A DNA stretch of 64,000 nucleotides. Origin: Bacteroidota bacterium (GTDB taxonomy: Bacteria; Bacteroidota; Bacteroidia; Bacteroidales; F082). The stretch covers positions 1-64,000 of the forward strand of contig JAERTD010000033.1 in NCBI GenBank assembly GCA_016845175.1. The letters are read 5' to 3'. This document shows, in pieces, positions 5,689 through 31,556 of this stretch. Each line of letters opens with the position of its first letter. Position 1 is the stretch's first letter. The notes beneath the pieces are model-generated. The model searched no databases. It was given only the letters and a program-made list of their open reading frames with translations, and was not told where the DNA came from. A program made the position numbers and the translations under genes.

Positions 5689-5696
5689 CAAATATA
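5689..5696 (-). promoter_or_regulatory. Predicted -7 element for the response regulator gene
   Basis: TATATTTG on the minus strand (5696-5689), about 29 nt upstream of the ATG. It suggests the regulator can be transcribed apart from the kinase upstream. Confidence 0.4.
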
Positions 5697-13683: not shown

Positions 13684-13686
13684 GAA

Positions 13687-14880
13687 TCAGGTTTTTGTAT
13701 TTACAATGGCCTCATAAATTGCTTTCACATTGTTTTCCCATGTATGGGTGCGTGCAAAGGCAATTCTGTCTTTGGCCTTTTCTTCAGTATCATCTTCCAA
13801 AGCCTTGCTAATAAATTCAACATACTCTTCCTTATTATGGGCAAGATAGGTATAATCCTTAAAAGCTTTCATGGTCTCCGTTGCTGTGGCTACTACTGCC
13901 TTACCCATGGCCAGGTACTCATCAATCTTACGAGGGTAGTTTCCGATGGTTAATTCATTAAGGGCCTGTGGGTTAAGAGCAACATCAAAGGCCATTAAAT
14001 AATCAGGTAATTCCTTTTCATTTTTGGAACCCAGAAAGATCACATTTTCAATCTGGTGCAACTCGCTTTTTTGGAATACCTCATCTTCAGGACCTACCAG
14101 GACCACATTCCAATCAGGTTTGCTTCGGGCAATATGTGCCAGGACTTCTATATCCAATCTTGAACTCTTTAACGCTCCAATGTATCCAATTACCGGGGAT
14201 GGGATGGATTTAATATCCTCGGGTAGTTCTTTGATCAGGTCCCGGTTGAAAAGACTGACATCACAACCCTGACCCACGTAAACAGAATTTGGATTGTTAA
14301 CAGCCGCTATGTCGTTGAGATACATTGAATTTGATACCACCAGATCGGATTTGGACATAAGTTGGTCTTCAAAGAAAGCACCATGCCTTCTAAAATAATC
14401 CGTTTCACGCATATTATCTCTGGTGTAGTAAATATTCATTGCTGGTTTTAACAATTCCTTGAAGTGTAAGGCCCTGAAAAAGTCACTATCGTTAAACAGT
14501 ATAAAATCCTTAAAACCCAACTCCTTGATTGCCTTATTGATACGTTTAGCATACCGTTTGTTGTTCATCTTGTTAAAGAAGGCAAAAAGGGACCTGAACT
14601 GTATTTTACTAAGGGATTCGATGGTGGTTTTTGGAAAAAGATTCCACATACTATCGTTCACTTTAACCAACTCCTCCTGTTTGCCCTGAAGTATTTCTTT
14701 TCGTTTTTGGATCAGAGGGTTAGATTTCTGGCGGTAAAAAGTGAGACGGTCAATGGGATAGTTTACATAAAGAACCCTATTATCTCTTGCAAACTCATAG
14801 GATAGGTTAATACAATTGCTCCCAATGGGTGAATCCAGAGCCTGAAGTCCAAGCACCACAATATCTCTGTTTTTAACCAT
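13687..14880 (-). CDS. Glycosyltransferase (GT-B fold), tandem paralogue
   Basis: 397 residues. N-terminal half starts KNRDIVVLGLQALDSPIGSNC; the C-terminal half carries GYIGALKSSRLD, VLVGPEDE and ALNPQALNELTIGNYPRKIDEYLAMGKAVVAT, the donor-nucleotide region of GT4-like enzymes. No signal peptide or membrane segment is visible, so it is cytoplasmic. It resembles the next upstream gene along its whole length (14886-16082), which indicates tandem duplication. Sugar specificity cannot be read. Confidence 0.88.
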   Translation of the reverse strand: MVKNRDIVVLGLQALDSPIGSNCINLSYEFARDNRVLYVNYPIDRLTFYRQKSNPLIQKRKEILQGKQEELVKVNDSMWNLFPKTTIESLSKIQFRSLFAFFNKMNNKRYAKRINKAIKELGFKDFILFNDSDFFRALHFKELLKPAMNIYYTRDNMRETDYFRRHGAFFEDQLMSKSDLVVSNSMYLNDIAAVNNPNSVYVGQGCDVSLFNRDLIKELPEDIKSIPSPVIGYIGALKSSRLDIEVLAHIARSKPDWNVVLVGPEDEVFQKSELHQIENVIFLGSKNEKELPDYLMAFDVALNPQALNELTIGNYPRKIDEYLAMGKAVVATATETMKAFKDYTYLAHNKEEYVEFISKALEDDTEEKAKDRIAFARTHTWENNVKAIYEAIVNTKT

Positions 14881-14885
14881 AGCTC

Positions 14886-16082
14886 TTACTTTTCGAGTTG
14901 TTCAATATAGTTGTATATCTTCTTTACGAAATTTTCCCAGGTATGTTCCCCGGCAAAGGCGATTCGTTCCTTACGTTTCTCTTCAGAGTCTTCAGCCAAT
15001 GCGCGTTCAATTTCAGTTACATACTCCTCTTTGCTTGAAGGCAGGTAGGTATGATCTTTAAAATAGGCCATGAAAGTAGTTTTTGTTGCTACTGTTGGCT
15101 TACCCATGGCGAGGTATTCATCAATCTTTAATGGGTAATTGATGTCGGTGATTACGTTCACCACCTGAGGGTTAAGTGCTACATCAAATCCTTTAATATA
15201 AGCGGCAAGTTCTTCAGGAGCTTTCTTACCCCAGAAATAGACATTGTCGAGTTGGTGTAGTTTGCTGTTCTCAAATGCCTCATCTTCAGGACCAACCAGT
15301 ACCAGGCTCCATTGGGGGCGCTGCTCGGCGATATGGACCAGGGCTTCAATATCCAGACGAATGGATGTTAGAAAACCCACATATCCTATGATGGGCTTGG
15401 GGATACCTTCAAACTCATTGGGGATGGCCATTTTTCCATCCGGGTCGCTGTATCGTTCCAAATCAACCCCCTGACCAATCATATGCGAATTAGGATTTGT
15501 TTCTCTGGCATAGTCAGCAAAATAATCAGAATTGGTGACTGCAACATCTGCCTTCTCAATGATTAAGGGTTGCAAACGGGTACCATGGCGTTTATGATAA
15601 GCTACATGAATAACCGCATCGCGCAGTAAATACACGAAAACATCAGGTTTCAGCAGTTCCTTAAAGTAGAAACCGGTAATCATGGAATTATCATTAAACA
15701 GGATATAGTTTTTAAAATCAAGCTTGTGAATAGCCTTCCATACTTGCTTAGCATAGCGCTTGTCGTTGATTTTATTAAAAAAATTGAAGATTCTAGGATT
15801 TCGAATCCAGTTGATGGACTCCACTATGGTTTTTGGATAGAGTACCCAAAGGCTGTCACTTTTCTGTTCCAGGTCCTCAGCCTCACCGCGATTGATTTTA
15901 AGGCGTTTGGCCACGTCTTCATCTTGTTTGTGCAGCAGCGCTGAACTCCTTTGTAAGGGTGGGTTTACATATAAAACACGATTATGCCTGGACATTTCTA
16001 TGGCCGTATACTTGCAAGTACTGGCTATATTATAGTCCCAAGCCTGTAATCCATAAACGATAATATCCCTGTTCTTAATCAT
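14886..16082 (-). CDS. Glycosyltransferase (GT-B fold), tandem paralogue
   Basis: 398 residues, collinear with the 397-residue neighbour: it starts KNRDIIVYGLQAWDYNIASTC and carries GYVGFLTSIRLD, LVLVGPEDEAFENSKLHQL and LKIDEYLAMGKPTVAT at the same places. The conserved Gly-rich and EYLAMGKP regions argue that both copies are active. Differences are concentrated in the N-terminal acceptor half, consistent with different acceptors. The gap to the downstream paralogue is 5 bp. Confidence 0.88.
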   Translation of the reverse strand: MIKNRDIIVYGLQAWDYNIASTCKYTAIEMSRHNRVLYVNPPLQRSSALLHKQDEDVAKRLKINRGEAEDLEQKSDSLWVLYPKTIVESINWIRNPRIFNFFNKINDKRYAKQVWKAIHKLDFKNYILFNDNSMITGFYFKELLKPDVFVYLLRDAVIHVAYHKRHGTRLQPLIIEKADVAVTNSDYFADYARETNPNSHMIGQGVDLERYSDPDGKMAIPNEFEGIPKPIIGYVGFLTSIRLDIEALVHIAEQRPQWSLVLVGPEDEAFENSKLHQLDNVYFWGKKAPEELAAYIKGFDVALNPQVVNVITDINYPLKIDEYLAMGKPTVATKTTFMAYFKDHTYLPSSKEEYVTEIERALAEDSEEKRKERIAFAGEHTWENFVKKIYNYIEQLEK

Positions 16083-16094
16083 AGTTCGATGGTT

Positions 16095-17249
16095 TTAGCT
16101 ATAATGTTTCTTATAAACCGTTTCATAAAGCTTCAGAACATCTTCAGCCATATGTTTCCATGAAAACTTTTCAGCTTGCTTGAGCCCTTTGGCAATAAAA
16201 TCTTTACGCATGTTTTCATCAGCAAGGAGCTTTACAATGCCTTCGGTGATCTCTTCTGGTTTGTAAGGATCAACTATATAGGCTGCTTTTCCCGAAACTT
16301 CCGGCATGGAGGATGTATTGGAGGTAATAACGGCAACTCCACACCTCATGGCTTCCAGCATCGGGATTCCAAAGCTTTCTCTCAATGAAGGGTAGAGGAA
16401 GAGTTCGCATAGATTGTAGATGGCTGGTAAGTCGGTGTTTACCACATAACCTGTCAGAATGATTCGATTGATTAAGTCTTTATCTCCAATATCAGATAAT
16501 ATTTTCTCCAGGGCCTGACGCTCGTAGTCGAGCATGACCAAATAAATGTCGTCTCCTGTTTGTTTGATATAATCTGAGAATGCTTTGAGGGTGCCAGGCG
16601 TATTTTTCTTGGGGTCGGTATTACCCAGGAAGAAGAAAAAGCGGTCAGGTAAATTATATAGACTTTTCACCCGGTCTAGCTCATCCTGATCGTTAATTAC
16701 TCTAAAGTGCTCACTCACACCATTATAAATGGCTACCAAACGATCATCCTCGGCAGGGATTCCAAAAAACTCACCGATTCTGTTTCTTTCAAAATTCGAT
16801 ACGGTAATGATCTTATCACTTTTCTTTACCACCGTGGGCACCACATAACGCCGGTACATATTTCCGAATTTCTGGTACCAGGTACCAGACTTTTTGAACA
16901 AAGCAATGCTCTCCATATATATGATGTCGTGCAAAGTGGTAACTAAGGGCATGCCCGCATTCATGGGAGCTGTGTTACTGGTGCAATGCAGGATATGGCA
17001 ACCTTCTTTTTTGGCAGCCTTGGGCAGCGCAAACTGCTCCCAGGTCGGGTAGGGGCCACCACCAAGTTCCACAATCTTAAAATTATCTGTTTGCTTGAGG
17101 GTATCTTTATCTTCATCAGGCTTGACGAAAACAACATATTCATTCTCAGTATCAATCTTTTGCAACTCGTTTATCAATTCGAGTGCCACCATGTCCATAC
17201 CATGTTTCTTGGTTCTGAATAAGCGCTGACCTTCTATTGCTATTTTCAT
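16095..17249 (-). CDS. Glycosyltransferase, family 4
   Basis: 384 residues. The N-terminal domain begins MKIAIEGQRLF and contains VTTLHDIIY and KIITVSNFERNRI; the C-terminal domain contains FFFLGNTDPKKN, an FLYPSLRESFGIPMLEAMRCG stretch with the EX7E catalytic/donor motif, and ITSNTSSMPEVSG. These are standard mannosyl- or rhamnosyl-transferase GT4 features. The start overlaps the stop of the upstream GT2 gene by 4 bp (ATGA). Cytoplasmic. Confidence 0.93.
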   Translation of the reverse strand: MKIAIEGQRLFRTKKHGMDMVALELINELQKIDTENEYVVFVKPDEDKDTLKQTDNFKIVELGGGPYPTWEQFALPKAAKKEGCHILHCTSNTAPMNAGMPLVTTLHDIIYMESIALFKKSGTWYQKFGNMYRRYVVPTVVKKSDKIITVSNFERNRIGEFFGIPAEDDRLVAIYNGVSEHFRVINDQDELDRVKSLYNLPDRFFFFLGNTDPKKNTPGTLKAFSDYIKQTGDDIYLVMLDYERQALEKILSDIGDKDLINRIILTGYVVNTDLPAIYNLCELFLYPSLRESFGIPMLEAMRCGVAVITSNTSSMPEVSGKAAYIVDPYKPEEITEGIVKLLADENMRKDFIAKGLKQAEKFSWKHMAEDVLKLYETVYKKHYS

Positions 17250-18463
17250 TTCTTTCTTGATTTGTTGAACCTTGGTTTTATCTGAAATGCGTTATAGGTG
17301 TGCTTGGTGTGAATAAACTTCTCATTGGCACCCCTGATTTTAAGTAATGACAAGGCCATAAGAACGAAACCTTTCGGTAAGGAAAGAATGGCTTTTAATG
17401 TCCTAAAGTTATAAAATTTCCGTGGGATGGAGAATAAAAAAACAAGCACAAGACTGCTCAGGCTGATCAACCATGCACCAAACCAGTCAGGACTTATGAA
17501 AAAAGAGAGTGCAGTAGCCAGTATTAGAAAGCCCAATAGCAGAACCCTTGGGAGTTGCAGGTAATGGACGGCTTTGAAAAAGTACTCATAATTCCCTTCT
17601 GAAAACAGTGCTTTAGTTGCCGGAATGATATGTTTGCCAAAGTAATGAAACTGAGCAGACAACCATCTGCGTCTTTGTTGAGTAAAGACCCTCGCATTCT
17701 GTACCTTCTCATCATAAACATAGGCCTCGGACAAATATTCAATTTCGTAACCCTCTCGATACAAACGCATTTCAATCTCTTTGTCAAAGCCTCCAACTAC
17801 CTCTACTTCCGACATCATTTGTTTGAACATGGGATAATCAAAGGCCATGGCAGAACCAATAAGAGTAGAAGAAAAGCCCAAGACACATTGGCCTTTTCTG
17901 AAAATGTTGTTGTTGATCTCTTCACTCACCGCATCAAGGATGGAAAAGCTGGTATTCATATTTTTCGCCACCCTATGTCCCTGTATAGCTTTGAAGCCCT
18001 TATTATAGGCTTGGTTGATTCTTTTGAGAAAGTCTGGTTCCATGATATTATCAGCATCCAATATGCAGGCAACTTCATAGTCTTCTTCCATTTTTCCCAA
18101 TGCATAATTTAGGGCTCTTGATTTGGTGCTGATCTCGAAATTCTTAGCAAACAGTTTGATATCCAGCTTTCTCAGTTTTACTAGGGTGTCTGCTGCAAAG
18201 GCATCCGCAATAACAATTATATCAAACTTATCGACTGGGTAATCCTGATTGAGTGCTTCAGCAGCCACACTGATGATTACCTCATCTTCTTTATAAGCTG
18301 GAATGAGTACAGCAATTTTTCGGAAGGTATTTTCCTTTGGTGCATCTGTTTTATAAGGGAACAGGCTGGCCACAGCAAAGACAAATAGGAAGAGCACAGT
18401 TAGTGTTACATAACTATAAACAATTAGATGGGCGATATCAAATATTATATGAAAGTAACTCAT
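17246..18463 (-). CDS. Membrane glycosyltransferase, family 2 (copy A2 of a duplicated pair)
   Basis: 405 residues. An N-terminal transmembrane segment (about 10-35), a GT-A core (IAVLIPAYKEDEVI, CILDADNIMEP, acidic FDKEIEMRL) and the QQRRRW acceptor motif of processive-type GT2 enzymes, followed by two or three C-terminal membrane segments (about 310-380). It is collinear with the gene at 19402-20625. Genes 17246/18467 and 19402/20629 thus form an A-B-A-B array created by duplication of a two-gene module. Confidence 0.9.
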   Translation of the reverse strand: MSYFHIIFDIAHLIVYSYVTLTVLFLFVFAVASLFPYKTDAPKENTFRKIAVLIPAYKEDEVIISVAAEALNQDYPVDKFDIIVIADAFAADTLVKLRKLDIKLFAKNFEISTKSRALNYALGKMEEDYEVACILDADNIMEPDFLKRINQAYNKGFKAIQGHRVAKNMNTSFSILDAVSEEINNNIFRKGQCVLGFSSTLIGSAMAFDYPMFKQMMSEVEVVGGFDKEIEMRLYREGYEIEYLSEAYVYDEKVQNARVFTQQRRRWLSAQFHYFGKHIIPATKALFSEGNYEYFFKAVHYLQLPRVLLLGFLILATALSFFISPDWFGAWLISLSSLVLVFLFSIPRKFYNFRTLKAILSLPKGFVLMALSLLKIRGANEKFIHTKHTYNAFQIKPRFNKSRKK

Positions 18464-18466
18464 TAA

Positions 18467-19396
18467 TTAAAGGCTGGGGTTTTCATGAATCTCTTTGGAG
18501 AATGCATTGGTAATATTCCAGCCAATGGCCCGGTAATAAGCAAGAAAAAGTTTGATTTTTCCTTTGATCAGGAATTTAAAAGCATTTTTTGGAATAGCCA
18601 TAAACAGCTGATACATCATGCTCAGATAGAAGGTCTTACCTTCAATGTTTCTTCGCATATATACCAAGCGGTTACGGTTTTGATAATAGATTTTTAAAGC
18701 AGATAGCTTTCCGGTGGATACTGATTCTTTATGCAGGACATGGGAATTGGCCACATAAAACATCTTATAACCTGCTTTTGCAATTCTGGCACACCAATCG
18801 GCCTCTTCGTAATACAAAAAGAAGATGTACGACATCAGCCCCACCTCTTTTACTACTCGCATAGGAACCATCATGGCTGCCCCGTGGGCATAGGGTGTTT
18901 CCCTATCCTCATTAAACCTGCCATCGTCCTTTTGCCAGTAACCAATGGCAAAGTTTCTCATGGTCACAGGATTGATGGGTGTATAGCCAGCATATTGTAT
19001 GGTGTCGGGCTGGTAATAGAATTTTATTTTTGGGCTCACAGCCCCAATGCTTTGATCTCCTTCCAGTTTGTCTATCAAGGGTTCCATGAAACCTTCGGGT
19101 ACTTCGATGTCGTTATTCAGTAATAAAATATAATCGCCCCTTGCACGCATCAGTCCAAAATTGTTACCGGCAGCAAAACCGTAATTAATTGGATTGGCTA
19201 TATATATGATGTTGGGAAAACGCTCCTTGATTATTTCCGGTGTATCATTGGATGAATCGTTGTCGATCACAATGACTTCAAAATTAGGCCAGGTAATCTT
19301 ATTTAAAGATTCAATGAGTTTACAGGTAACTTCAGATTGGTTGTAGTTAACAGTAATGATAGATACCAATGGATAATGCGTACGGTTTTTTGCCAT
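18467..19396 (-). CDS. Glycosyltransferase, family 2, rhamnosyltransferase-like (copy B2)
   Basis: 309 residues. VSIITVNYNQSEVT, VIDNDSSNDT and LLNNDIEVPEGF are the nucleotide and metal sites of a soluble GT2 of the WcaA/RfbF type; FFLYYEEADWCARI is the catalytic-base region. No membrane-spanning domain is clear, though a C-terminal hydrophobic, basic stretch may attach it to the membrane. It is collinear with the gene at 20629-21564 and belongs to the duplicated pair. Confidence 0.9.
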   Translation of the reverse strand: MAKNRTHYPLVSIITVNYNQSEVTCKLIESLNKITWPNFEVIVIDNDSSNDTPEIIKERFPNIIYIANPINYGFAAGNNFGLMRARGDYILLLNNDIEVPEGFMEPLIDKLEGDQSIGAVSPKIKFYYQPDTIQYAGYTPINPVTMRNFAIGYWQKDDGRFNEDRETPYAHGAAMMVPMRVVKEVGLMSYIFFLYYEEADWCARIAKAGYKMFYVANSHVLHKESVSTGKLSALKIYYQNRNRLVYMRRNIEGKTFYLSMMYQLFMAIPKNAFKFLIKGKIKLFLAYYRAIGWNITNAFSKEIHENPSL

Positions 19397-19401
19397 AGAG
19401 G

Positions 19402-20625
19402 TTATTTTGATTCATCTTCGTCCACATGTGAATGGGTGGTATGCAAAAACTTTTTGCTGGCACCTTTAATTCGTAATAGGCTTATAATCATTAATATGAA
19501 GCCATGTGGTACACGCAGCAATGCTAAAAAAGTCTTCATATTATAGAACCTACGTGGTACGGAAAATAGCAGTGCCAAAACCGTAGCTACAAACAAGCCC
19601 AACCAAAAGTAAAAGGGTGGTTGAAACCATTGCTGGACCTGTGTGTCGAAAACAAAATAAATGAGACCGTAAATACAACAAGATAAAAACAGGATTCCGG
19701 CCAAGAGTATTCGGGGTGGCTGAATCATTTGCAACACCTTATCGAAGTAATCTATATTACCTCTGAAAACCAACTCTCTCAGGCCATCTATAAAATGACT
19801 CCTGAAGTAATCGAGTTGTGCAGCAATCCATCGGCGTCTTTGGTTGACAAACACATCTGATTTCTGAGTTTTCTCATCATAGATCAGGGCATCATGGACA
19901 TATTCAATGCGGTAATTCTTTTTAATGATCTTCAGTTCGACCTCTTTATCTTCACCAACAGAGTCAACGGTGGCCATGGTTTTCTTAAACAAATGATAGT
20001 CCAGTCCCATACCTGATCCTATCAAAGCGGATGAGATTCCCAACACACGGTGGCCTTTTCTGAAAATATGGTTGTTTATTTCCTCACTCATGGCATCCAG
20101 AATGGCGAAATGGGCATTGAGGTTTTTAGCGGTACGGTGACCCTGTACGGCCTGGAATCCTCTTTCAAAAGCCTCATTTATTTTTCCCAGTACATTGGGT
20201 TCCATGATATTGTCTGCATCAAGTATGAAGGCAATGTCATAATCATCGCCAATTTCAGCCATACAACGGTTAAGGGCTTTGGATTTTTTACTGACTTCAA
20301 ATTCAACCACCACAACCCTAATGGGCAGCTCTCTTAAAGCAGCCAGTGTTTTTTCATTGAATGAATCAGCGATGACGATTACCTCATATTTGTCTTTGGG
20401 ATAATCCTGATTGAGTGCTTGTTTGGCCACATTAACGATGACGGCATCTTCCTTATAACCAGGAATCAGGACTGCAAACTTACGTTGTTTACTGGCTTGA
20501 ATCGGCTTTTGAACTTTATAAAACAAGCCAAAGAAAGCAAACAGAAAAATGTAGAATGTTGCAGACAACAGGTATAGATAGGCGAGGACTTCAATACCAT
20601 TGACAACGTAACGTAATATTTCCAT
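19402..20625 (-). CDS. Membrane glycosyltransferase, family 2 (copy A1 of a duplicated pair)
   Basis: 407 residues with the same plan as the protein at 17246-18463: N-terminal transmembrane segment, FAVLIPGYKEDAVI, FILDADNIMEPN, GEDKEVELKI, NQRRRWIAAQ, and C-terminal membrane segments. All catalytic motifs are kept, so both copies look functional. It starts three bases after the stop of the upstream B1 gene. Confidence 0.9.
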   Translation of the reverse strand: MEILRYVVNGIEVLAYLYLLSATFYIFLFAFFGLFYKVQKPIQASKQRKFAVLIPGYKEDAVIVNVAKQALNQDYPKDKYEVIVIADSFNEKTLAALRELPIRVVVVEFEVSKKSKALNRCMAEIGDDYDIAFILDADNIMEPNVLGKINEAFERGFQAVQGHRTAKNLNAHFAILDAMSEEINNHIFRKGHRVLGISSALIGSGMGLDYHLFKKTMATVDSVGEDKEVELKIIKKNYRIEYVHDALIYDEKTQKSDVFVNQRRRWIAAQLDYFRSHFIDGLRELVFRGNIDYFDKVLQMIQPPRILLAGILFLSCCIYGLIYFVFDTQVQQWFQPPFYFWLGLFVATVLALLFSVPRRFYNMKTFLALLRVPHGFILMIISLLRIKGASKKFLHTTHSHVDEDESK

Positions 20626-20628
20626 AGG

Positions 20629-21564
20629 TTACTTTTTAATTAATTTGGGTATATCAAATACAATCCCCTTATGATGACTCAGGTTCCACCACACAGCTTT
20701 CCAATAGGCCCATATCAGGTCAAAACGACGTCTGGCAAGGAACTGCAGCGTTATCCTAGGTAAAGTTACTAAATAAATATATAAAAGACTCATGGCTTTC
20801 TTTAGGCCTGTCGTATTTCTGCGGGCAAAGAGAATGCGCCCACGCATCAGATAAAAGATCTGGAAAGGACTGTTCTTTACTGTGGAAATGGATTCCTTAT
20901 GATACACCAACGATTTTCCCTGATAATATATCTTATAGCCTGCTTTTTTAATGTGGGCGGCCCAATCATGTTCTTCGTAGTATAAAAAGAAAACATCTGC
21001 CATCATGCCCACTTCTTCTATAATACGCATGGGTACCAGCATAGATGCTCCAAATATGGACCCGGTTTCTTTGGTTTCCATGTATTGTCCCGTGTCCTCT
21101 TCACCAAAGCCAATGGCAAAATTTCTGATGGTTATCATATTAAAAGGGGTGAAGCCTGCGAACTGGAGTATGTTGGGTGTGTGGAAATACTGGATCCGGG
21201 GACTCACCATACCCACATCAGCTTGGTTTTCCAATACTTCAACCAGCGGCTCTAAAAAATCCGGTTCAACTTCTGTATCATTGTTAATAAACAACACATA
21301 TTTACCTTTACAATGCGGGAGGGCCACATTATTTCCACCTGCAAATCCAAGGTTCTCGGTAGTTTTGATAAGATTTACGCTGGGATATTCCTTTTTAATA
21401 ATATCGGGATCATCACTGGGTGATGCATTATCCACAATCAGGATTTCAATGTTTTCGTAGGTAATGGATTCCAGGGAGTTTAAAAACTCTAGTGTGACTG
21501 CTGACTGATTGTAATTCACACTGACCACCGAAACCAAAGGAACCGGACTGTTCAATTTGCTCAT
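20629..21564 (-). CDS. Glycosyltransferase, family 2, rhamnosyltransferase-like (copy B1)
   Basis: 311 residues. VSVVSVNYNQSAVT, LIVDNASPSDD and LFINNDTEVEPDF give the donor/metal site; FFLYYEEHDWAAHI matches the same region of its paralogue at 18467-19396. Soluble or peripherally bound. It starts 17 bp after the polymerase gene. Confidence 0.9.
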   Translation of the reverse strand: MSKLNSPVPLVSVVSVNYNQSAVTLEFLNSLESITYENIEILIVDNASPSDDPDIIKKEYPSVNLIKTTENLGFAGGNNVALPHCKGKYVLFINNDTEVEPDFLEPLVEVLENQADVGMVSPRIQYFHTPNILQFAGFTPFNMITIRNFAIGFGEEDTGQYMETKETGSIFGASMLVPMRIIEEVGMMADVFFLYYEEHDWAAHIKKAGYKIYYQGKSLVYHKESISTVKNSPFQIFYLMRGRILFARRNTTGLKKAMSLLYIYLVTLPRITLQFLARRRFDLIWAYWKAVWWNLSHHKGIVFDIPKLIKK

Positions 21565-21581
21565 AATTAACGGTTTACAGT

Positions 21582-23105
21582 TTAGTCTTTAGTAAATATT
21601 GACCAAGGCTTTATTCCTTTCTTCTCCAGATCAAACCACTGGCGATCTAGCTGCTGGGCCATCAGAATGAAACACCAACTCAGGTAAATCAGGGCACCGG
21701 TGGGCATCTGACCGAGCACACCATTTCCGTAAGAGGCACCCATAACACCTGCAAATGAAGCAATTAGGGCGCCAAGCACCCCTGCCAATTCGAGCGATTT
21801 CACCCGAATCATAACCAGATAAAATCCTTTTAAAATAATAAAAGACAAAAAGAATAAATGAAGAATCAGGCCTACGATTCCTTGTTCAGCCCATATCTGT
21901 ACATACCAACTATCAGTAGCCACATTAGCAAGAAAACCCTGTGGCGAAAATCGCTGACCCCAGTTACCAGCCGCACCTATACCGCCTCCAAAAGGCTTGT
22001 CTGCCAGGTAGGTACTTAAAATAGCTCTGTTTTCCAATCGTACCTGGTAGGACGCATCATCTTCCGGTCGGAAGGCTGTACGCATTCGTGCGACCTGATA
22101 ATTACTGTCACCAATATAGGTATAGGCAAAAAAGACATACATAAAAGCCATAAAAACACCTCCGATGACCAGAACCCTGATGTTCTTTCTAAGGATGAGA
22201 TAGGTAATGCCTCCAATCATGGGTACAATCATCGCGCCTCGGGTACCAGATATCATCATACCCCAAAGGCCCATAAAGCCCATAATGAAAAAGAATATTT
22301 TTCTATGTGTTTGTTTTACGGAGATGGCCGTAAGAATACCGGCAACACCAGCTGCACCCTGTGCAGCTCCAAACTGACCTGCATCACTCATAAACGAGAA
22401 GACCCTGAGCTGCCCCATAATAATATGAGTAATGGCTCCTACCGTATCCAGCCAATACTGCTCAGCAAAGTCTGGTCCCAAATATAACTGCTGCAGCCCT
22501 TTGAGGGTGGCTAGAATGGTAAATACACCCCATATATATAAGAACAAATACAGATGTCTCAGGCGGTTAAACAGCATAAATCCCAGAGGAAGAAATAATA
22601 CTGGATACATTGACATACCTCGCATGGCGTAAAACCACGCCGTACGGCTAAGTGCCAAAGGGTTAAATAGTTCCAGTATACCATAAACAAACCAGGCCAT
22701 CATAAACCAGGTGGCTGTACGATTGGCCTGCCCAAAATTGACTTTTGTGTAGAAATTCTTGAATATCATGGCGATATAGGTGATCACCAGAAAACCATCA
22801 ATCCCTAAACCTAGGGGAACACCTCGAATATACCGGGTAAGCCCAATGGCAACGAATGAAAAAATGAGTAAGGTGATTACTCCAATCTCAGGATAATTAA
22901 ACAGTCGATTCAAAAAAATTAACAGTGGAGCCATCATGACCAGGGCGATGGCAGTCATAATACCACCCTTTGCTATTACAACCCCAAAAACAACAGCTCC
23001 AAGAAGGACGGCTGCTATAACCAGAGGGTGCTGTAGCTTGGCTGCACCAGTTTTTTCTTTAATAGAATCAAACATATTCGGAAATAACTGCTTTAAAAAT
23101 AACAA
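21582..23105 (-). CDS. O-antigen ligase/polymerase-like membrane protein
   Basis: 507 residues with about 11-12 hydrophobic segments and a large extracytoplasmic loop (about 330-400) containing RLENRAILSTYLADKPFGGGIG, the Wzy_C/WaaL-type loop with the conserved Arg and Gly residues. It probably polymerises repeat units or transfers the finished chain at the periplasmic face. It sits between the flippase and the glycosyltransferases, as in Wzx/Wzy-dependent loci. Confidence 0.88.
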   Translation of the reverse strand: MLFLKQLFPNMFDSIKEKTGAAKLQHPLVIAAVLLGAVVFGVVIAKGGIMTAIALVMMAPLLIFLNRLFNYPEIGVITLLIFSFVAIGLTRYIRGVPLGLGIDGFLVITYIAMIFKNFYTKVNFGQANRTATWFMMAWFVYGILELFNPLALSRTAWFYAMRGMSMYPVLFLPLGFMLFNRLRHLYLFLYIWGVFTILATLKGLQQLYLGPDFAEQYWLDTVGAITHIIMGQLRVFSFMSDAGQFGAAQGAAGVAGILTAISVKQTHRKIFFFIMGFMGLWGMMISGTRGAMIVPMIGGITYLILRKNIRVLVIGGVFMAFMYVFFAYTYIGDSNYQVARMRTAFRPEDDASYQVRLENRAILSTYLADKPFGGGIGAAGNWGQRFSPQGFLANVATDSWYVQIWAEQGIVGLILHLFFLSFIILKGFYLVMIRVKSLELAGVLGALIASFAGVMGASYGNGVLGQMPTGALIYLSWCFILMAQQLDRQWFDLEKKGIKPWSIFTKD

Positions 23106-23111
23106 ATATAA

Positions 23112-24545
23112 TCAAGAATCCCCTTTAAGCTTGCTCAAAAAACCGCTAAAGAAGCCAAATCCGTCGGTAAAAATTTTCCTGAAATGGAGTCCTAATTCCC
23201 TGTGTAAATAATGATAGCCCACCATGATGCCCACAATGGCGAAGAGGATGGTTACACAAGCGACCATCTCAAGTATGGTCATGGTTGTGAACTCATTGGT
23301 AATCTGGGCAATCAGGGATACATCCTGGAAACCCCAGAGTAATAAGGCAGCTACAGAAAAGAAGCTGACGAGATAATACAGTCCAAAAACGACAATGGCA
23401 TCACCAATAATATTTGAGCTGGTCATATAAATGACCTTAATGAAGTTTTGTTTGGGCATATTCACACTGTCCAGGGCCACACCGATGAAGCGATCGATGG
23501 GTAACAGCAAGCCATAAATACAGAAAATCCTGAAAATAGTGGCCGTTTGAGTGTATTCAGGTCCTCCAAGGATGGTTACAAACTCCTCTGCAAAGATGAA
23601 ACAAAAGATCATCACCGGGATCAGCAGATAGGTGAGTCCGCCTGCATTTTGATAGAAAATTTCACGTACAGCGGCTTTGTTGTTTTCAATACTCGCTTTG
23701 GACATACCTGGAAAAGCCGTCATGGCAAAACTCCTGACCGGAATTTCGATGATTTCGGTAAGCTTTAAAGGGATGCTGTACAGCGCTACACCGGTGGTGC
23801 CAAGAAATGGGCTTAAACCAATGATAAAAGTATCAGCGCTCTTAAGTAAGTTGCTTCCAATCAGTGTTCCTGAAGTGTATTTACCAAAATCCAGTAGTAT
23901 TTTACTGGTCCTCTTTTTGGCTTTAAATACATAGCGGATCCCATCCCAGTTCAACAAGGAACTTACTATGGAAGTCAGCACATTGGTCAGAATAAATACA
24001 ATGGTGATGACCAACAGGCCTGAATGGATGAAAAAATAATTAATGACCAGATAAAGCATAAAACTTCCCACATTCAACATCCTTAATCCCAGGATCTGAT
24101 CAAAGCGCATCTTGGCCTGCAAGACAGAAAACGCATTATTAAAGGGAATATTGATGATTGCAAGTATCGGAAACCAGGTGAAAAACAAACTAAAACCGGA
24201 AGCACTTACCGCATCACTAAAGAAAATATTGATGAGAAAAACCACCGCAGCAATAAAAACCGAACTCACCAGGTTGATCACATAATTGGATCCTATCAAT
24301 TGATGCCCCTCCTCTTCGGAAGCGCCTGATAAAAACCTGACAATTGCTGTTCGGGTTATTCCAAACCTCAGCATATCAATGAAGTTAGCCGTAGTTAGAA
24401 AAAGCACCCACTCACCAAAGTCGTTGGTAGGAAGACTTCTAACCAAGACTATGAAACTAAAGAAACCCAGCACTGCAACAAGACCATTGTTGGCCAGAGA
24501 AAGGAAGTTACTATTTTTTAATATTTTTGAGAGGAAGCTTGCCAA
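23112..24545 (-). CDS. Polysaccharide flippase (Wzx/MOP superfamily)
   Basis: 477 residues, about 12-14 transmembrane segments spread over the full length, starting with an amphipathic N-terminus (SKILKNSNFLSLANNGLVAVLGF). Charged residues in the first membrane segments and FGITRTAIVRFLSGASEEEG are typical of the polysaccharide-biosynthesis branch of the MOP exporter superfamily. It should flip undecaprenyl-linked repeat units to the periplasmic side. Gap of 5 bp to the co-polymerase gene. Confidence 0.88.
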   Translation of the reverse strand: MASFLSKILKNSNFLSLANNGLVAVLGFFSFIVLVRSLPTNDFGEWVLFLTTANFIDMLRFGITRTAIVRFLSGASEEEGHQLIGSNYVINLVSSVFIAAVVFLINIFFSDAVSASGFSLFFTWFPILAIINIPFNNAFSVLQAKMRFDQILGLRMLNVGSFMLYLVINYFFIHSGLLVITIVFILTNVLTSIVSSLLNWDGIRYVFKAKKRTSKILLDFGKYTSGTLIGSNLLKSADTFIIGLSPFLGTTGVALYSIPLKLTEIIEIPVRSFAMTAFPGMSKASIENNKAAVREIFYQNAGGLTYLLIPVMIFCFIFAEEFVTILGGPEYTQTATIFRIFCIYGLLLPIDRFIGVALDSVNMPKQNFIKVIYMTSSNIIGDAIVVFGLYYLVSFFSVAALLLWGFQDVSLIAQITNEFTTMTILEMVACVTILFAIVGIMVGYHYLHRELGLHFRKIFTDGFGFFSGFLSKLKGDS

Positions 24546-24550
24546 AACAA

Positions 24551-27472
24551 TTATCCTTCTTTTTTGATATGGACTTTGTATTTAAAAGGAGCTAATAAAT
24601 AAGTCTTTATTTTCTTGAAGGTTTCAGGTTTGGTTCTTTTTTGTACATCGGTCATGAACTCTTCGAGATTATAGAGTTCCACCTCATTCAATACAACGAA
24701 TGGTTTCTGCTCAACTACCTCATCAAAAGTGGCCAGTGCGGTCTTGTCGGCTTTTGTGAGCTTGCTATTGGCTTTAATCACATATAGCGACAAGTCTGCC
24801 TGATTGATGAGTTTAATTGGATAAATATTATAAATAATGGAAGGAATTTCAAGGAAAATATAATCGTAGGCTTTGTTATCTTTTCTTAAGAAACTAGAAT
24901 CAGACATCAATTCCTGAAGGTTTGACACATCTATAAAATTATCCTTTATCTTATAGTTATAACTATAGTTGTAGTCATCGCTTATGCCCTGATCTTCATA
25001 GTTTAGCATGAGTACACTATCGCCAAACGACCTTAAACGGCTGGCCATTTTCTGGCTTAATAGTGATTTACCCACAGCGTCTTGCGAACTGAAAATGAGT
25101 ACCAGATATGGTTTTTCAATATCCTTTTTCGAATTGATGGCCATCTTGATATTCTGTATGGCAATATCAACCAATCGGTTGCTCACATTGGACAATTCAA
25201 CGGCCTGACTTCTGGAACCCAGATGCGGATAGGCACCTCCTAATTTCATACCGGTAGCTTTTGCTACGCGGCTAGGACTTTTCATGGAGGTATCGAAGTA
25301 TTCAAGGACCAGAATGACAAAGAGTACGAAAACAAAGCCAAACATGGCAGCAGCCACTATGATAAACTTGGCTCTCGAAGGATTTGCCTGAATAGGGAAG
25401 TAAGGAGCATCCACAATTTTTACATTGGTAGCCATTTCCTCATTCTGCTGTTTCATTTTGGCCAGATTTAAACTCCTGAGTAACTCAAGGTAAGCCTGTT
25501 CAGCAACTTTGATTTCACGCTCGATTCTGGTTAGCATGGCGCCCAGGGGTGCAAATTTCTGATAGGTACGAACGAAATCCATCTTTCTTCGTGCCAGTAC
25601 TACCAGTGCAGCTCTTGCTTCTTCGTAAGCAATAGTATTGTTCAGCCATTCGTCAAGTAAGGTCTTGATGGGCATCCCTTGTGTGGTATGACTATATAAG
25701 TAAAGCTGATCAACATAAAGTTTAATGTCGTTTCTCAATTCCTGTTGGCGCTTGCGCAGCACAACCAATTCCTCTTCGATTCGTTGGTCATAATCTGCCG
25801 CAATATCATTGATCACAATACTTTCAGTAATCTCTGCAAGTTCCTTCTTGAGCTGGTTGATCTCATCGCTCTTGAGGTATATACTATCCCTGGCTGTGAG
25901 GTTTAGTTCAAGTTCTTTAAGCGCAGCTGATGAAGAGGCCAGTCGAATCTGTTCATTCTGATAAAATAGGTCAAGGTCCTCCTTTTGAGCTGCGATATAT
26001 TTACTTTGCTCGTAATAATTGATAATGTTGTTCTTCTTATTAAACTTCAGCAGGCGGTCCTCAGCAGCTTTAAGTTTCTTATCAGCGGAATCTACCTGGC
26101 GTTCGAAATACTTTACTACTAGGTCAGTTTCATTGGCACGTAGCAGTTTGTAGTTCTTCATAAATACCTGAGAAAGAATCTTCAAGGTCTGCTGACAGAT
26201 TCCGGGATCATCTGAGGTATAGGTCAAACGAACCAAGTCACTATTGTTGATGCGATAGATTTGAATGTTGCTGATGTGTCTAATGCTATAATGCGGATGC
26301 ATTCCATAATGCAACAATCCATAAATAAAGTTTGAATCGCTCGAATTATAGAAACGTGTCAGATTGTTCAATGTCTTGGCAAAATCATCAGGATTAACTC
26401 CTGGTGGGATGATGGGGTCTTTTTCCCATTCTCTTCCAGCTGTGGAGTGGTCTTCGACAAATATTGTGGTACCCCCTGATACCTGAGCGGCAGAGGAGGA
26501 GTGATCAATTGTTGGAGAAACCTGTTTCACAGCATAATCATATTCATAGGTATTGGCAACACCGCTATTGCCTTCATCAATGATGATCTGTTGTCCTGGG
26601 CTTAATGATCTGTTTTGAAGATTATTAACTTCCCTTAATTTGCTCATATTAACCCCATACTTTTTGGCAATGGAGTATAATGTTTCTCCAGCTTTAACCG
26701 TATGGTATTTCTTGGAAATAGGAGTGGTTTTACGGATAACCAATGACTGACCAGGAGTAATATCACCGGAGGTCATATTATTCATGGACATGATTTGACC
26801 ACGGGATACTCCATAACGACTGGCTAATTCGGAAAGGGATTCGCCTTGTTGTACCACATGATAGGTGAAGCTTTCTTCTTCATCCACCGGCATTTGGGTG
26901 TTTCCTTTTTCAACGCCTGATCCAGCCGGAGTAGTGGTAGGGGTATTCACTCCGAGATTTGTCCTTATTTTTTCCTGAGCAGCACGATTCTTCTTCTTGC
27001 TGATCTCTTTTTCCAGGCTTTGAATCTCTTTTTCAAGAGATTTGATTTGTTGTTCCTTTTCACGCTCAATACCGGATTTGTTGTTTTTCACAACCAGGTC
27101 TTTCACACGTTTGGGAATAAAAACTTGTAAGCGATCAAAATTGGCGGATGAAATATACTGTCTGTTGTAATTTTCCAGTGATAAATCCTGGGCAAGAAGT
27201 TGTAAAGCTGTTTCGACAATAGTTTGCCTTGAGTTAAGCAAGTTAATCATATTGTCAAACTGAGCACTGATACTAAAGAAGTCGGTAGGTCGCTGAGAAG
27301 TTGACTCAATGGAATATCCAGTGGTGATACCGGTGTAGATAACAGCTTCAGACTGGTACACCTGCTGTTGGTTTCTTGTAAAGTAATAAGTAACGCCTGC
27401 CAGTATAATAGGTACAGCAAGCAATATTAATAGGTTGCGTTTAAAAAGCTGTATGATTTGTACTAAATCCAT
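24551..27472 (-). CDS. Wzz/Wzc-type polysaccharide co-polymerase with two LysM domains and a degenerate kinase domain
   Basis: 973 residues. Order: transmembrane segment 1 (about 14-32), Wzz N-terminal region (to about 120), charged coiled coil (135-170), two LysM domains (about 203-247 and 255-299, each with a Y-H-V/T-V..GE-L..A..Y-G-V pattern and ending PGQ), a long helical periplasmic region (about 360-690), transmembrane segment 2 (about 703-727) and a cytoplasmic P-loop domain (about 780-950). The P-loop keeps AVGKS, but the Walker A' and B aspartates are replaced (LNYEDQG, IFLEIPS), and a Tyr cluster (YNYSYNY, about 824-830) lies inside the domain instead of at the C-terminus. It should control chain length and export; the LysM domains would bind peptidoglycan. 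Kinase activity is doubtful. Confidence 0.88.
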   Translation of the reverse strand: MDLVQIIQLFKRNLLILLAVPIILAGVTYYFTRNQQQVYQSEAVIYTGITTGYSIESTSQRPTDFFSISAQFDNMINLLNSRQTIVETALQLLAQDLSLENYNRQYISSANFDRLQVFIPKRVKDLVVKNNKSGIEREKEQQIKSLEKEIQSLEKEISKKKNRAAQEKIRTNLGVNTPTTTPAGSGVEKGNTQMPVDEEESFTYHVVQQGESLSELASRYGVSRGQIMSMNNMTSGDITPGQSLVIRKTTPISKKYHTVKAGETLYSIAKKYGVNMSKLREVNNLQNRSLSPGQQIIIDEGNSGVANTYEYDYAVKQVSPTIDHSSSAAQVSGGTTIFVEDHSTAGREWEKDPIIPPGVNPDDFAKTLNNLTRFYNSSDSNFIYGLLHYGMHPHYSIRHISNIQIYRINNSDLVRLTYTSDDPGICQQTLKILSQVFMKNYKLLRANETDLVVKYFERQVDSADKKLKAAEDRLLKFNKKNNIINYYEQSKYIAAQKEDLDLFYQNEQIRLASSSAALKELELNLTARDSIYLKSDEINQLKKELAEITESIVINDIAADYDQRIEEELVVLRKRQQELRNDIKLYVDQLYLYSHTTQGMPIKTLLDEWLNNTIAYEEARAALVVLARRKMDFVRTYQKFAPLGAMLTRIEREIKVAEQAYLELLRSLNLAKMKQQNEEMATNVKIVDAPYFPIQANPSRAKFIIVAAAMFGFVFVLFVILVLEYFDTSMKSPSRVAKATGMKLGGAYPHLGSRSQAVELSNVSNRLVDIAIQNIKMAINSKKDIEKPYLVLIFSSQDAVGKSLLSQKMASRLRSFGDSVLMLNYEDQGISDDYNYSYNYKIKDNFIDVSNLQELMSDSSFLRKDNKAYDYIFLEIPSIIYNIYPIKLINQADLSLYVIKANSKLTKADKTALATFDEVVEQKPFVVLNEVELYNLEEFMTDVQKRTKPETFKKIKTYLLAPFKYKVHIKKEG

Positions 27473-27473
27473 A

Positions 27474-28247
27474 TTATCTGAGTACGTTAATTAAATTGAA
27501 CCGCATGCCTGTTATCACTTCCAGCACCTGATAGTTTTTATTGAACTCGGCAATCGACTGCTGATACAATACTGTACCTTTAATTTGGATCTCTTTCAGT
27601 CGTGTATATTCTGCTGTTGAAATCTCTCCATTCAAAAACTCGTTTTGAGCCATTTGCATTTGCATCATGGTAAACGACTCATACTCATTGTATATCCTGA
27701 TCTGAGCCTGAAGGTTCACAAGGTCATTGTATACTACAATAACACGCTCCTGAAGGTACCTTTTATTAATCTCCTTCTGAGCAATGGAAATCTCAACCCA
27801 TTTTTTCTGTTTATTAATTCTGTTTCTTCTGTCTACAATTGCCCCGATTGGAAGACGGATATAAAACATACCTGCAAAAGCGGTTCTCCATGATTCGGTC
27901 AGGTAATATCTGTCCACACGTGTAATTTCATCCCTGTCTCTGTAGGTCCATTGACCTCCAACCGCATCAAGGTTGACACTAAAATACTCCAGCCATTCTC
28001 TTGCAGCCGAAGTTTCCATATAACGGTAATAGTCCACCTTCAGGTCTTCATACAACATACTTGGTGAGTTGTAGGCAGCGGAATCGGTTAATACCCTGAG
28101 AGGAGGAAGGCGTTTGGTAATATCCTGGGTAAGTGGATTAAAATAACGGGTGGTGTCAATCCGAAACGATTGTCCATATATGGTACAGCCCAACAGCAGA
28201 ATAATTGCTGTTATGAAAGTTGTTCTTAGCTTTAATCCAATTGCCAT
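27474..28247 (-). CDS. Half-length TolC-like outer-membrane protein
   Basis: 257 residues. The signal peptide ends either at IYGQ (signal peptidase I) or at LLGC (lipobox); I cannot decide. Residues about 115-255 resemble the second half of a TolC/OEP protein: a strand FYIRLPIGAIVDRR, long helices, and a NGEISTAEYTRLKEIQ turn followed by NYQVLEVITG. A normal TolC is about 450 residues with two such halves. It starts one base before the co-polymerase gene and no Wza gene is present, so it may be the outer-membrane part of the exporter. Confidence 0.7.
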   Translation of the reverse strand: MAIGLKLRTTFITAIILLLGCTIYGQSFRIDTTRYFNPLTQDITKRLPPLRVLTDSAAYNSPSMLYEDLKVDYYRYMETSAAREWLEYFSVNLDAVGGQWTYRDRDEITRVDRYYLTESWRTAFAGMFYIRLPIGAIVDRRNRINKQKKWVEISIAQKEINKRYLQERVIVVYNDLVNLQAQIRIYNEYESFTMMQMQMAQNEFLNGEISTAEYTRLKEIQIKGTVLYQQSIAEFNKNYQVLEVITGMRFNLINVLR

Positions 28248-28370: not shown

Positions 28371-29585
28371 CTAAACATTTTCCTTCTGTAAAAGCGCAGG
28401 GATGGTTCTAAATATAAGTTTGATATCCCCCCAAAAGGAATAAGTTTCAGCATATTGATTATCAAGTCCTTTTCTTTCTTCTTCTGACATTTTTCCACCT
28501 TTACCACGCAACTCAACCTGCCACAATCCGGTTATTCCTGCAGGTCCCATGAAACGGGCACTCCAATCGTCGGATGTTAATAACTCTGCCTCGTATAAAG
28601 GTAGGGGGCGGTTGCCTACGATTGACATATCACCTTTCAGCACATTAATGAGCTGAGGCAATTCGTCAATACTGGTGTTTCTAATGAAATTTCCAACCTT
28701 TGTAACCCTTGGGTCATTGGTGATTTTTATAAAAGTGGATGTGGTTTGTTCTTTTTTCTGCTCCTGATACCAATGTTCACAAATTTCCTGGCCTTCAAGG
28801 TATAGAATAGGGGAGCAGTATTCACCTTCCGGAAGCATGCTACATGTAGGACAATTGGTATCTATTTTTACTTCCTCTTTGGCTTCTTCTTGTTCAGCAT
28901 ATTGGTTCATATGCTTAAGATCTTTCAATTTGGCATCAGCCCCGGTATACATGGATCTGAATTTGAGAAAATTGAAGATCTTATAACCAGTACCTACGCG
29001 CTTGGATTTGTAAATGACCTGACCCTTGGATTCCAGACGGATTATAAGGGCTACCGCTAATAATATGGGTGATAGCATGGTCAGAGCCACCAAGGAGACT
29101 AGTATATCAAAAGCCCTCTTTATCAGTGGAATTTTGTATTCTGTGTAAGCTTGTTTTGATACCGGCTTTTCTGCAAGTTCCTGGTAATACTGTTTCAGAA
29201 AGTTTATTCTGTCATAAATGGCTGTATAGTCGAGAGGGTAAACAAATAAATCACTCACAATCTCCCTGTTTTTAAGGGCAGCCTTAAATATTTTGTCATC
29301 GTTAATCTCGCTGGTAACCAAAAAGGGTGTTTTGGTATACCCTTCCAGTCCTTTAACCATCTTGCCAACCTCAATTCCACTCATACCAGGTAACTGGGCT
29401 TCTGAGATTATGGCATTAAATTCCGGACCCGTTTTAAGAAAATCCATGGCTCGCAGGCAATTCTTAAACTGAGTTAACTCATACTTATCTTCCATGGAAA
29501 GGAAGTTTTGAATGGTTTCCTCGTTGTTTCCGATATATAGAACCTTTAATGCTTCTTTCACGGTTTCAGGATTAGGGGAATGCAA
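28371..29585 (-). CDS. Initiating sugar transferase with N-terminal pseudo-receiver domain
   Basis: 404 residues. Residues about 13-132 have the length and pattern of a response-regulator receiver (AIISEAQLPGMSGIEV, FLVTSEIND), but the phospho-acceptor Asp is Glu62, the acidic pair is Asn20-Asn21 and the Lys of KPF is Tyr116. A transmembrane segment (160-184) leads into a bacterial sugar-transferase domain (KSKRVGTGYKIFNFLKFRSM, NDPRVTKVGNFIRNTSIDEL, NVLKGDMSIVGNRPLP), which moves a sugar-1-phosphate onto undecaprenyl phosphate. Between them an insert holds C245, C248, C257 and C269. It follows a response-regulator gene by 4 bp. The short form (no extra membrane helices) resembles PglC/WcaJ-C enzymes. 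Confidence 0.9.
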   Translation of the reverse strand: MHSPNPETVKEALKVLYIGNNEETIQNFLSMEDKYELTQFKNCLRAMDFLKTGPEFNAIISEAQLPGMSGIEVGKMVKGLEGYTKTPFLVTSEINDDKIFKAALKNREIVSDLFVYPLDYTAIYDRINFLKQYYQELAEKPVSKQAYTEYKIPLIKRAFDILVSLVALTMLSPILLAVALIIRLESKGQVIYKSKRVGTGYKIFNFLKFRSMYTGADAKLKDLKHMNQYAEQEEAKEEVKIDTNCPTCSMLPEGEYCSPILYLEGQEICEHWYQEQKKEQTTSTFIKITNDPRVTKVGNFIRNTSIDELPQLINVLKGDMSIVGNRPLPLYEAELLTSDDWSARFMGPAGITGLWQVELRGKGGKMSEEERKGLDNQYAETYSFWGDIKLIFRTIPALLQKENV

Positions 29586-29589: not shown

Positions 29590-29967
29590 TTAGATGCCTC
29601 TTCGAATGATCAGGTTTTCAATCCTAATAGAAAGCTCTTCCGGGTTGAAAGGTTTTACGATATAATCATCAGCTCCAAGCTTTAGACATTTTACGCGCTC
29701 ATTGGAACTTTCTATACCTGAAAGCATGATCAGTGGGATATGCTTAAAAAATCCACTGGCCCGAACGTTTTTGATGAAATCATACCCGTCCAGATTTGGC
29801 ATCTGAATATCTGCAACGATTAAGTCAGGCATATTACCCTCCTCTAGGTATTTAATACCTTCCAATCCGTCATTCCTGGTAACAACCGTAAATGTTTTAC
29901 TTAAAAAATTTTCAAGCAGCATCCGGATGCTGATTTCGTCATCAATGATGAGTATAGTTTTTTTCAT
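29590..29967 (-). CDS. Single-domain response regulator (CheY-like)
   Basis: 125 residues, a complete receiver: acidic pair in LIIDDEIS, phospho-acceptor Asp in LIVADIQMPNLDGYDF, Ser in IMLSGIE, Lys in IVKPFNPEEL. No output domain. It lies between a hybrid kinase and the pseudo-receiver sugar transferase, 4 bp from the latter, and is thus a candidate for carrying the phosphorelay signal by direct protein contact. Confidence 0.93.
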   Translation of the reverse strand: MKKTILIIDDEISIRMLLENFLSKTFTVVTRNDGLEGIKYLEEGNMPDLIVADIQMPNLDGYDFIKNVRASGFFKHIPLIMLSGIESSNERVKCLKLGADDYIVKPFNPEELSIRIENLIIRRGI

Positions 29968-30206: not shown

Positions 30207-31556
30207 TCAGGCCCTGGCTTTAATACTACCTAATATCAACGGCAGTTTGCTTACATTAAAGGGTTTACTGATATAGTCATCCATTCCGGCATCCAGACAA
30301 CGCTCCCGGTCTTCCTTGTGGGTGTTAGCTGTGAGCGCAATAATTTTAACGGGGTTTTCTGCAGAGGTTTCATTCTCAATCTTTCGAATGGTTTTGGCGG
30401 CTTCAATTCCATCCATCACTGGCATTTGAACATCCATCAGGATTAGATGAAACTCTTCCTCCTTAAATTTCTCGACAGCTTCAACACCGTTACAAGCCAC
30501 ACTCATTTGGTAACCTTCATTTTTAAGCAGGCTCATGGTGATTTTCTGGTTGATGTGATTGTCTTCAACCAATAAAATGTTGCTGGTTTCGGAAGCTGGT
30601 GATGAAACCAGTTTGGGAGTAATTCCTGCCTTAAAACTTATGGCGACTGTAAATGAAGTACCCTTATTCACGATACTCTTCATGCTGATATCACCACCCA
30701 TAAGTTGGCATAATTGTCGGGTAACAGCCAAACCAAGACCACTGCCACCCGTTCGCCGGGTCAGGCTATCATCTTCCATTGAAAAGGCTTTCCATATATT
30801 ATCCTGATGCTCTACAGGAATACCAATCCCAGTATCATGGATAACAAATTCTATCTGATGCCTATTTCTACTATTCTCTATTTGCCTGATTTCAAAGCTA
30901 ATGCTTCCCTCTTGAGTGAATTTTACAGCATTGTCAACAATATTGAATAAAATTTGCTTTAAACGCAGCGAGTCGCCGGTGACGTATTCAGGAAGTGCAG
31001 GATCGAGGTTGAGCTTAAAAACCAGCTGCTTATCGTCCATTAATTTCCTGAAATGGTCTACCACCTCATAAACTTCAGATCTTAAGTTGAAATTCAGATG
31101 ATCAAGCACCAATTCGCCCATTTCAAGTTTGTTGAAATCGAGGAGGTCGTTGGTGAGCCTTTGAAGGGATTCACTTGACTTTTTAATATTTCCCACCACC
31201 TCGAGTATTTCCGAATCATCGGTCATCGCTTTCAGCAGATGTGTGGCTCCGATAATGGTATTGAGAGGGGTTTTAATTTCATGGCTCATATTGGCCAGGA
31301 AATTATTTCTCAAGCCCTTGGATTGCTTAGCAATTGTTGTCATTTTCCTGAGTCTGTTAGCTAGTTGGCTGCTGCGTTTTATCTGCTTTTCACTTTCGTT
31401 TTGGTAGCTCCGTAAATCTATGTTTACCTTGTTAATTCTGTAAATCCATAGCAATAAAAAAACTGTAGTTGCAAACCAGCCAATGATAAGTAGCTGGCCA
31501 ACAAAAACAGGGGATTCCTGCAGATTTATAAAGAGTATCAACTTTTGAGTCAACAT
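30207..31556 (-). CDS. Hybrid sensor histidine kinase without periplasmic sensor domain
   Basis: 449 residues. One transmembrane segment (about 18-38), a short coiled coil, HisKA with NMSHEIKTPLNT, an HATPase domain (DTGIGIPVEH, GGSGLGLAVTRQL) and a C-terminal receiver (LLVEDNHIN, LILMDVQMPVMDG, SKPFNVS). No extracellular domain is visible, so the signal must be membrane-borne, cytoplasmic or delivered by another protein. Located directly upstream of the response regulator and the pseudo-receiver sugar transferase. Confidence 0.93.
   Translation of the reverse strand: MLTQKLILFINLQESPVFVGQLLIIGWFATTVFLLLWIYRINKVNIDLRSYQNESEKQIKRSSQLANRLRKMTTIAKQSKGLRNNFLANMSHEIKTPLNTIIGATHLLKAMTDDSEILEVVGNIKKSSESLQRLTNDLLDFNKLEMGELVLDHLNFNLRSEVYEVVDHFRKLMDDKQLVFKLNLDPALPEYVTGDSLRLKQILFNIVDNAVKFTQEGSISFEIRQIENSRNRHQIEFVIHDTGIGIPVEHQDNIWKAFSMEDDSLTRRTGGSGLGLAVTRQLCQLMGGDISMKSIVNKGTSFTVAISFKAGITPKLVSSPASETSNILLVEDNHINQKITMSLLKNEGYQMSVACNGVEAVEKFKEEEFHLILMDVQMPVMDGIEAAKTIRKIENETSAENPVKIIALTANTHKEDRERCLDAGMDDYISKPFNVSKLPLILGSIKARA

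Follow-up and report, generated by a model that had tools for sequence, protein, structure and literature searches.

Why does an enzyme that would initiate an exopolysaccharide chain carry at its N-terminus a domain resembling a response-regulator receiver, and what could such a domain do without the residues of phosphorylation? The question is raised by a 64,000-nucleotide stretch of Bacteroidota DNA (hereafter the window), in which a gene encoding an initiating sugar transferase (PGT) fused to a receiver-like domain follows the gene of a single-domain response regulator. We favor the reading, with a probability of roughly 0.55, that these two genes form a module in which the regulator binds to a degenerate duplicate of itself and thereby controls the PGT directly. 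More tentatively, at somewhat under even odds, we propose that a working regulator and a phosphorylation-dead, PGT-fused copy of it constitute a phylum-wide "split receiver", two unlike halves whose pairing would control the entry step of exopolysaccharide synthesis as a heterodimer. The features of the locus on which our analysis is based are the following.

28371..29585, minus strand: pseudo-receiver-PGT fusion gene, 404 aa, TTG start
29169..29549, minus strand: pseudo-receiver domain, residues 13-139, CheY-like (beta-alpha)5 (AlphaFold2, Foldseek, Pfam)
29400..29402, minus strand: Glu62 in place of the phospho-acceptor Asp (from alignment with the adjacent regulator)
29250..29252, minus strand: Asp112 in beta5, corresponding to Asp97 on the alpha4-beta5-alpha5 dimer face of KdpE (99 of 116 pseudo-receivers have Asp here)
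29208..29210, minus strand: Arg126 in alpha5, corresponding to KdpE Arg111 (Arg in 87 and Lys in 14 of 116 pseudo-receivers)
28374..29126, minus strand: monotopic PGT catalytic domain, residues 154-404 (Pfam, Foldseek, invariant columns)
28374-28388, minus strand: C-terminal tail QKENV of the PGT, residues 400-404, almost universal in fused PGTs
29590..29967, minus strand: single-domain response regulator, the proposed partner, directly upstream of the fusion (Pfam, 7.3e-27)
30207..31556, minus strand: hybrid histidine kinase with a receiver, the next upstream gene (Pfam HisKA, HATPase_c, Response_reg)
13066..28247, minus strand: downstream exopolysaccharide genes for OEP, Wzz/GNVR protein, Wzx, Wzy, glycosyltransferases and a hexapeptide acyltransferase (Pfam, synteny)

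The fusion ORF starts 4 nt past the stop codon of the upstream gene. Its transferase half matches Bac_transf over residues 156-399 (Pfam, E=4.2e-57), has PglC (8e37) and WbaP as Foldseek matches, and contains a membrane helix at residues 154-185 in the AlphaFold2 model as well as an Asp307-Glu308 dyad that is invariant in the PGT alignment columns. With Bac_transf, the Asp-Glu dyad, one membrane helix and no N-terminal membrane bundle, it is a small monotopic PGT (PF02397). The initial annotation took this part to be a normal sugar transferase, which it is not entirely: it carries a Cys4 insert within the transferase domain (Cys 245, 248, 257 and 269, CPxC-x8-C-x11-C; residues 245-269, window 28779-28853). 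This insert is invariant in 25 close relatives, present in a line of 265-aa paralogues, and missing from many other lineages; by appearance, it looks like a metal site. The QKENV tail is common to fused PGTs and to short PGTs linked to a regulator, is absent from the 265-aa paralogues, and occurs also in short PGTs that have no adjacent regulator; it is a possible regulatory or docking element.

The N-terminal domain of the fusion protein matches the Response_reg model over residues 23-105 with E=3.5e-5 and 24.4 bits, which falls below the curated Pfam cut-off of 30.2 bits, and 23 of 72 homologues scanned singly were matched by the same model (best 6.6e-11). The structure prediction and fold search proposed in the initial annotation gave a receiver fold: AlphaFold2, run on 72 sequences, returned the (beta-alpha)5 order with a pLDDT of 95-98 over residues 11-130, and Foldseek aligned the domain to PmrA REC 9of8 with a target TM of 0.82 and an rmsd of 2.0 A. 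The far diverged homologue of B. fragilis is still modelled as a receiver fold in its N-terminal domain, which is the only reliable part of that model, and its nearest fold match is the atypical receiver of TadZ/CpaE (PDB 4lda).

While the fold is that of a functional receiver (PF00072), the acceptor Asp, the acidic pair and the Lys are missing. Glu62 stands for the acceptor Asp and Tyr116 for the Lys, both as originally claimed, whereas the acidic pair, first read as Asn20-Asn21, is off by one residue and becomes Gly19-Asn20 in the alignment with the neighboring true receiver. Since these residues replace the phosphorylation set, we class the domain only as a pseudo-receiver. Among 116 distinct pseudo-receivers, the acceptor position is occupied by Glu (72), Asp (14), Gln (10), Tyr (6), Asn (4) or others, 89 have Gly at the first acidic position, and the catalytic Lys is essentially gone; the least degenerate members (L195 and L196) keep both the Lys and the Glu. 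The dN/dS ratio of the domain in close pairs is 0.04-0.23, so by this measure it is under purifying selection and not decaying. Thus a receiver fold, loss of the phosphorylation residues and selection are found together, and by these comparisons the domain is a conserved pseudo-receiver across Bacteroidota, not a single decayed copy. The opposite case envisaged at the outset, in which homologues bear a normal Asp and this copy has simply decayed, does not hold, since the chemistry is lost phylum-wide.

The initial annotation had also suggested a profile search for the same domain pair elsewhere, and the fusion turned out to be present throughout Bacteroidota. Full-length fusion proteins with 50-66% identity occur in relatives of the same family, and a species-genome alignment search recovered 80 loci, nearly all with the fusion. 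The hosts include Bacteroides fragilis, B. stercorirosoris, Prevotella, Flavobacterium, Muricauda, Pedobacter, Mucilaginibacter, Sediminibacterium, Hymenobacter, Rufibacter, Cyclobacterium and Marinifilum, among others. Two loci with weak N-terminal matches, L062 and L063, were rejected as receiver fusions, as they encode large PGTs of the usual sort, whose catalytic domain is preceded by membrane spans.

The regulator encoded next to the fusion has intact catalytic residues (Asp9-Asp10, Asp53, Ser83 and Lys105), and the regulators beside fused PGTs in general keep the acceptor Asp in 113, and the Ser and the Lys in all, of 116 cases. It lies directly upstream of the fused PGT in all 26 first relatives, and over the first 27 loci the gap ranges from -16 to +42 nt; the two genes are thus separate, and we dropped a programmed frameshift fusion of them as an explanation. 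When all loci are considered, the regulator is directly upstream of 117 of 117 fused PGTs and in 8 of 8 further places, hence 125/125, although two of the eight repeat, as longer reads, loci that are in the count, which leaves slightly fewer than 125 distinct places. By contrast, none of 41 other PGTs in the window's genome and its relatives has a receiver protein within ~3 kb (Fisher p=7e-40 for 125/125 versus 0/41, without correction for relatedness). With ~75 receiver matches in the genome, the chance that a regulator would be adjacent by accident is small. In three genomes that have two fused PGTs, each copy has its own regulator beside it, and the pair persists where the remaining operon differs (L085, L089 and L095). 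The regulators beside additional PGT copies at L249, L251 and L253 appear to be without the acceptor Asp, the gene pair being kept. By sequence comparison, the observation is confirmed, and what looked like a single odd protein belongs to a two-gene module found across the phylum.

Two receiver proteins of the window had been put forward as binding partners of the fused domain. The adjacent one is the obvious candidate by its 125/125 linkage, whereas the one at 5253-5660 is not supported as a partner, being a distant relative with only 27% identity to the conserved regulator over residues 6-115, and not among the PGT neighbors found. The region 5253-8554, at the other end of the polysaccharide cluster, encodes this second single-domain regulator together with a TPR-hybrid histidine kinase. 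The hybrid kinase upstream of the module is a candidate kinase of the regulator in the window genome; only a subset of the relatives has it. Downstream of the module, the polysaccharide genes (OEP, Wzz/GNVR protein, Wzx, Wzy and glycosyltransferases) are widely shared among them. The Wzc-like chain-length protein of the Wzz/GNVR family (24551-27472) has two LysM domains in its periplasmic part (Pfam), which to our knowledge is unusual in this family, and the outer-membrane export gene (27474-28247) encodes a short, 257-aa protein of the OEP/TolC family that is not of the Wza type.

If regulator and pseudo-receiver bind each other, the face on which receivers normally pair, alpha4-beta5-alpha5, is where their contact would be expected. 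In the dimer of KdpE formed through this face, Asp97 and Arg111 make an intermolecular salt bridge (PMC4773095), and the equivalent positions in the pseudo-receiver, set by the distance from the conserved Lys position, are Asp112 and Arg126. The regulators have the same Asp in 99 and the Arg in 90 sequences, as frequently as the pseudo-receivers, and at Phe129, in the place of the hydrophobic-patch residue Val114 of KdpE, 102 of 116 pseudo-receivers have Phe or Tyr. The Arg is rarer in the other receivers of the window genome (8 of 19; Fisher p=0.006), while the Asp is widespread among receivers of all kinds (14 of 19), so its retention is suggestive and not proof. The beta5 Asp, the alpha5 Arg and the hydrophobic patch are therefore present in both partners, which by itself does not prove dimerization; it suggests that the pairing face was retained while the phosphorylation chemistry was lost.

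As to the origin of the domain, the nearest receiver in its genome to the least degenerate pseudo-receiver that keeps the Lys (L196) is the adjacent regulator (2.3e-16, the next being 1.2e-6), suggesting that the pseudo-receiver most likely arose by duplication of the regulator. When all pseudo-receivers were compared with their own and with other regulators, there was no preference (own 59.5, others 60.4), so that the case for duplication comes from the least degenerate member only. In the tree of catalytic domains, the 265-aa short PGTs, which have neither the pseudo-receiver nor the regulator, nest inside the fused clade (SH-aLRT 89-94 for this placement, not starred), and the simplest reading of this topology is that both were lost together in that line. 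Some deep-branching short PGTs (L201, L203, L204 and L205) have an adjacent regulator and no pseudo-receiver; thus, the regulator-PGT pair may predate the fusion. Two genomes of the Cyclobacteriaceae type (L144, 3336-5766; L146, 3019-5568) also have a PGT without pseudo-receiver, and a single-domain regulator in the same direction ~2.2-2.5 kb upstream of it, with a gene for a 675-aa protein in between.

These observations can be assembled into the following scheme. The module would stand at the head of an exopolysaccharide operon, its gene 1 encoding the phosphorylatable regulator and its gene 2 the initiating PGT, which would move a sugar-1-phosphate onto the polyprenyl-phosphate carrier. The duplicated regulator domain would have been retained on the PGT as a docking half that is incapable of phosphorylation. 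Once phosphorylated by a histidine kinase, the regulator would pair with the pseudo-receiver via the alpha4-beta5-alpha5 face, and the pairing would alter the assembly of the PGT or the access to its active site, thereby setting the rate of chain initiation without transcription. We infer the regulator-PGT contact, its face, the effect on the enzyme and the sign of this effect, activation being a guess by analogy with the EpsW/EpsZ system of Myxococcus xanthus, in which the phosphorylated single-domain protein EpsW stimulates the initiating PGT EpsZ post-translationally (PMC12802240, mBio 2025). With this precedent and the 125/125 linkage, direct, non-transcriptional control of the first step, as already suggested in the initial annotation, is plausible and the best inference. 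Direct coupling applied to 122 regulator-PGT pairs, which are too few sequences, gave top scores through a few clade-specific columns, and we set these scores aside. Over 23 core loci, mean identity is highest in the regulator (79%), followed by the catalytic domain (76%) and, far behind, the pseudo-receiver (39%); it is odd that the least conserved part should be the surface on which a 79%-conserved partner docks.

A rather unlikely alternative is that the regulator touches the catalytic domain or the C-terminal tail of the PGT, the pseudo-receiver having a separate job such as pairing PGT subunits like the cytoplasmic domain of WbaP. The deep-branching short PGTs that keep a regulator agree with it, since there the target of the regulator may be the catalytic domain, as does the model of EpsZ with EpsW, where the latter sits on both the DUF and the catalytic domain. 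The distribution of the QKENV tail over fused and regulator-linked short PGTs, and not the 265-aa line, is also in its favor, but this argument is weakened by the tails of short PGTs that have no adjacent regulator, and every PGT with a pseudo-receiver has a regulator, a tie tighter than a separate job predicts. It is less likely still that the regulator acts elsewhere, as a phosphate sink or on the export machinery or a kinase, the pseudo-receiver binding a histidine kinase or other protein. Hybrid kinases do lie nearby in some genomes including that of the window, and the Wzz/GNVR protein and Wzy are widely shared too; however, the kinase is not constant among relatives, the regulator stays with the PGT where the operon differs, and duplicated PGTs come with duplicated regulators.

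The two remaining alternatives concern the pseudo-receiver itself. That Glu62 stands in for a phosphorylated Asp and keeps the domain locked in an active state, as initially supposed, is highly improbable: although Glu is the commonest residue at this position and is present in the Lys-keeping L195 and L196, 44 of the 116 pseudo-receivers carry other residues, 14 of them Asp, and the residues that would read the state of the acceptor, namely the Lys and the Mg-binding acidic ones, are lost almost everywhere. Finally, a functionless receiver relic might be expected from the low identity of the domain and its match below the Pfam cut-off, but it is contradicted by the purifying selection and by the reading frame and fold retained across the phylum, and we give this idea almost no weight.

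The preferred reading, direct control of the PGT by a regulator docked on the pseudo-receiver, can be compared with several known systems. The fusion as such is not new, since O'Toole, Imperiali and Allen 2021 are cited in PMC12802240 for receiver domains fused to small monoPGTs, which, as far as that citation describes them, are of the same kind of architecture. EpsW/EpsZ likewise ties a single-domain regulator to a monotopic PGT, the one that initiates a Wzx/Wzy exopolysaccharide pathway, and EpsW is close to EpsZ in vivo, modelling placing it on the DUF and the catalytic domain (PMC12802240). However, EpsZ belongs to the large monoPGTs, having a membrane bundle and a DUF but no receiver, whereas here we find a small PGT with a pseudo-receiver, encoded next to its regulator. 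Activation has been shown for EpsW and is a guess by analogy for the regulator here. The window pair shares the regulator-PGT tie and lacks the large monoPGT with DUF; thus it is not of the EpsW/EpsZ family, though it may work similarly. The CheY-like pseudo-receiver of TadZ/CpaE also has a receiver fold without phosphorylation residues, but the one described here forms part of a PGT and comes with a linked regulator that is still functional by its residues. With the OmpR/PhoB-type alpha4-beta5-alpha5 dimers (KdpE, PhoB) our regulator and pseudo-receiver share the beta5 Asp and the alpha5 Arg; unlike in those proteins, there is no DNA-binding domain, and the proposed dimer joins an active and an inactive receiver.

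It was not until 2025 that a response regulator was reported to control a PGT directly, in myxobacteria (PMC12802240). If our reading is true, the same principle would operate in a whole phylum, including environmental bacteria and gut bacteria such as Bacteroides and Prevotella, and in a compact two-gene form, in which the pseudo-receiver pinpoints a likely contact site. It would also be an evolutionary case of a duplicated receiver that lost its chemistry and kept its interface, and it touches on the question of how bacteria decide what share of their common polyprenyl-phosphate carrier goes into any one surface polysaccharide.
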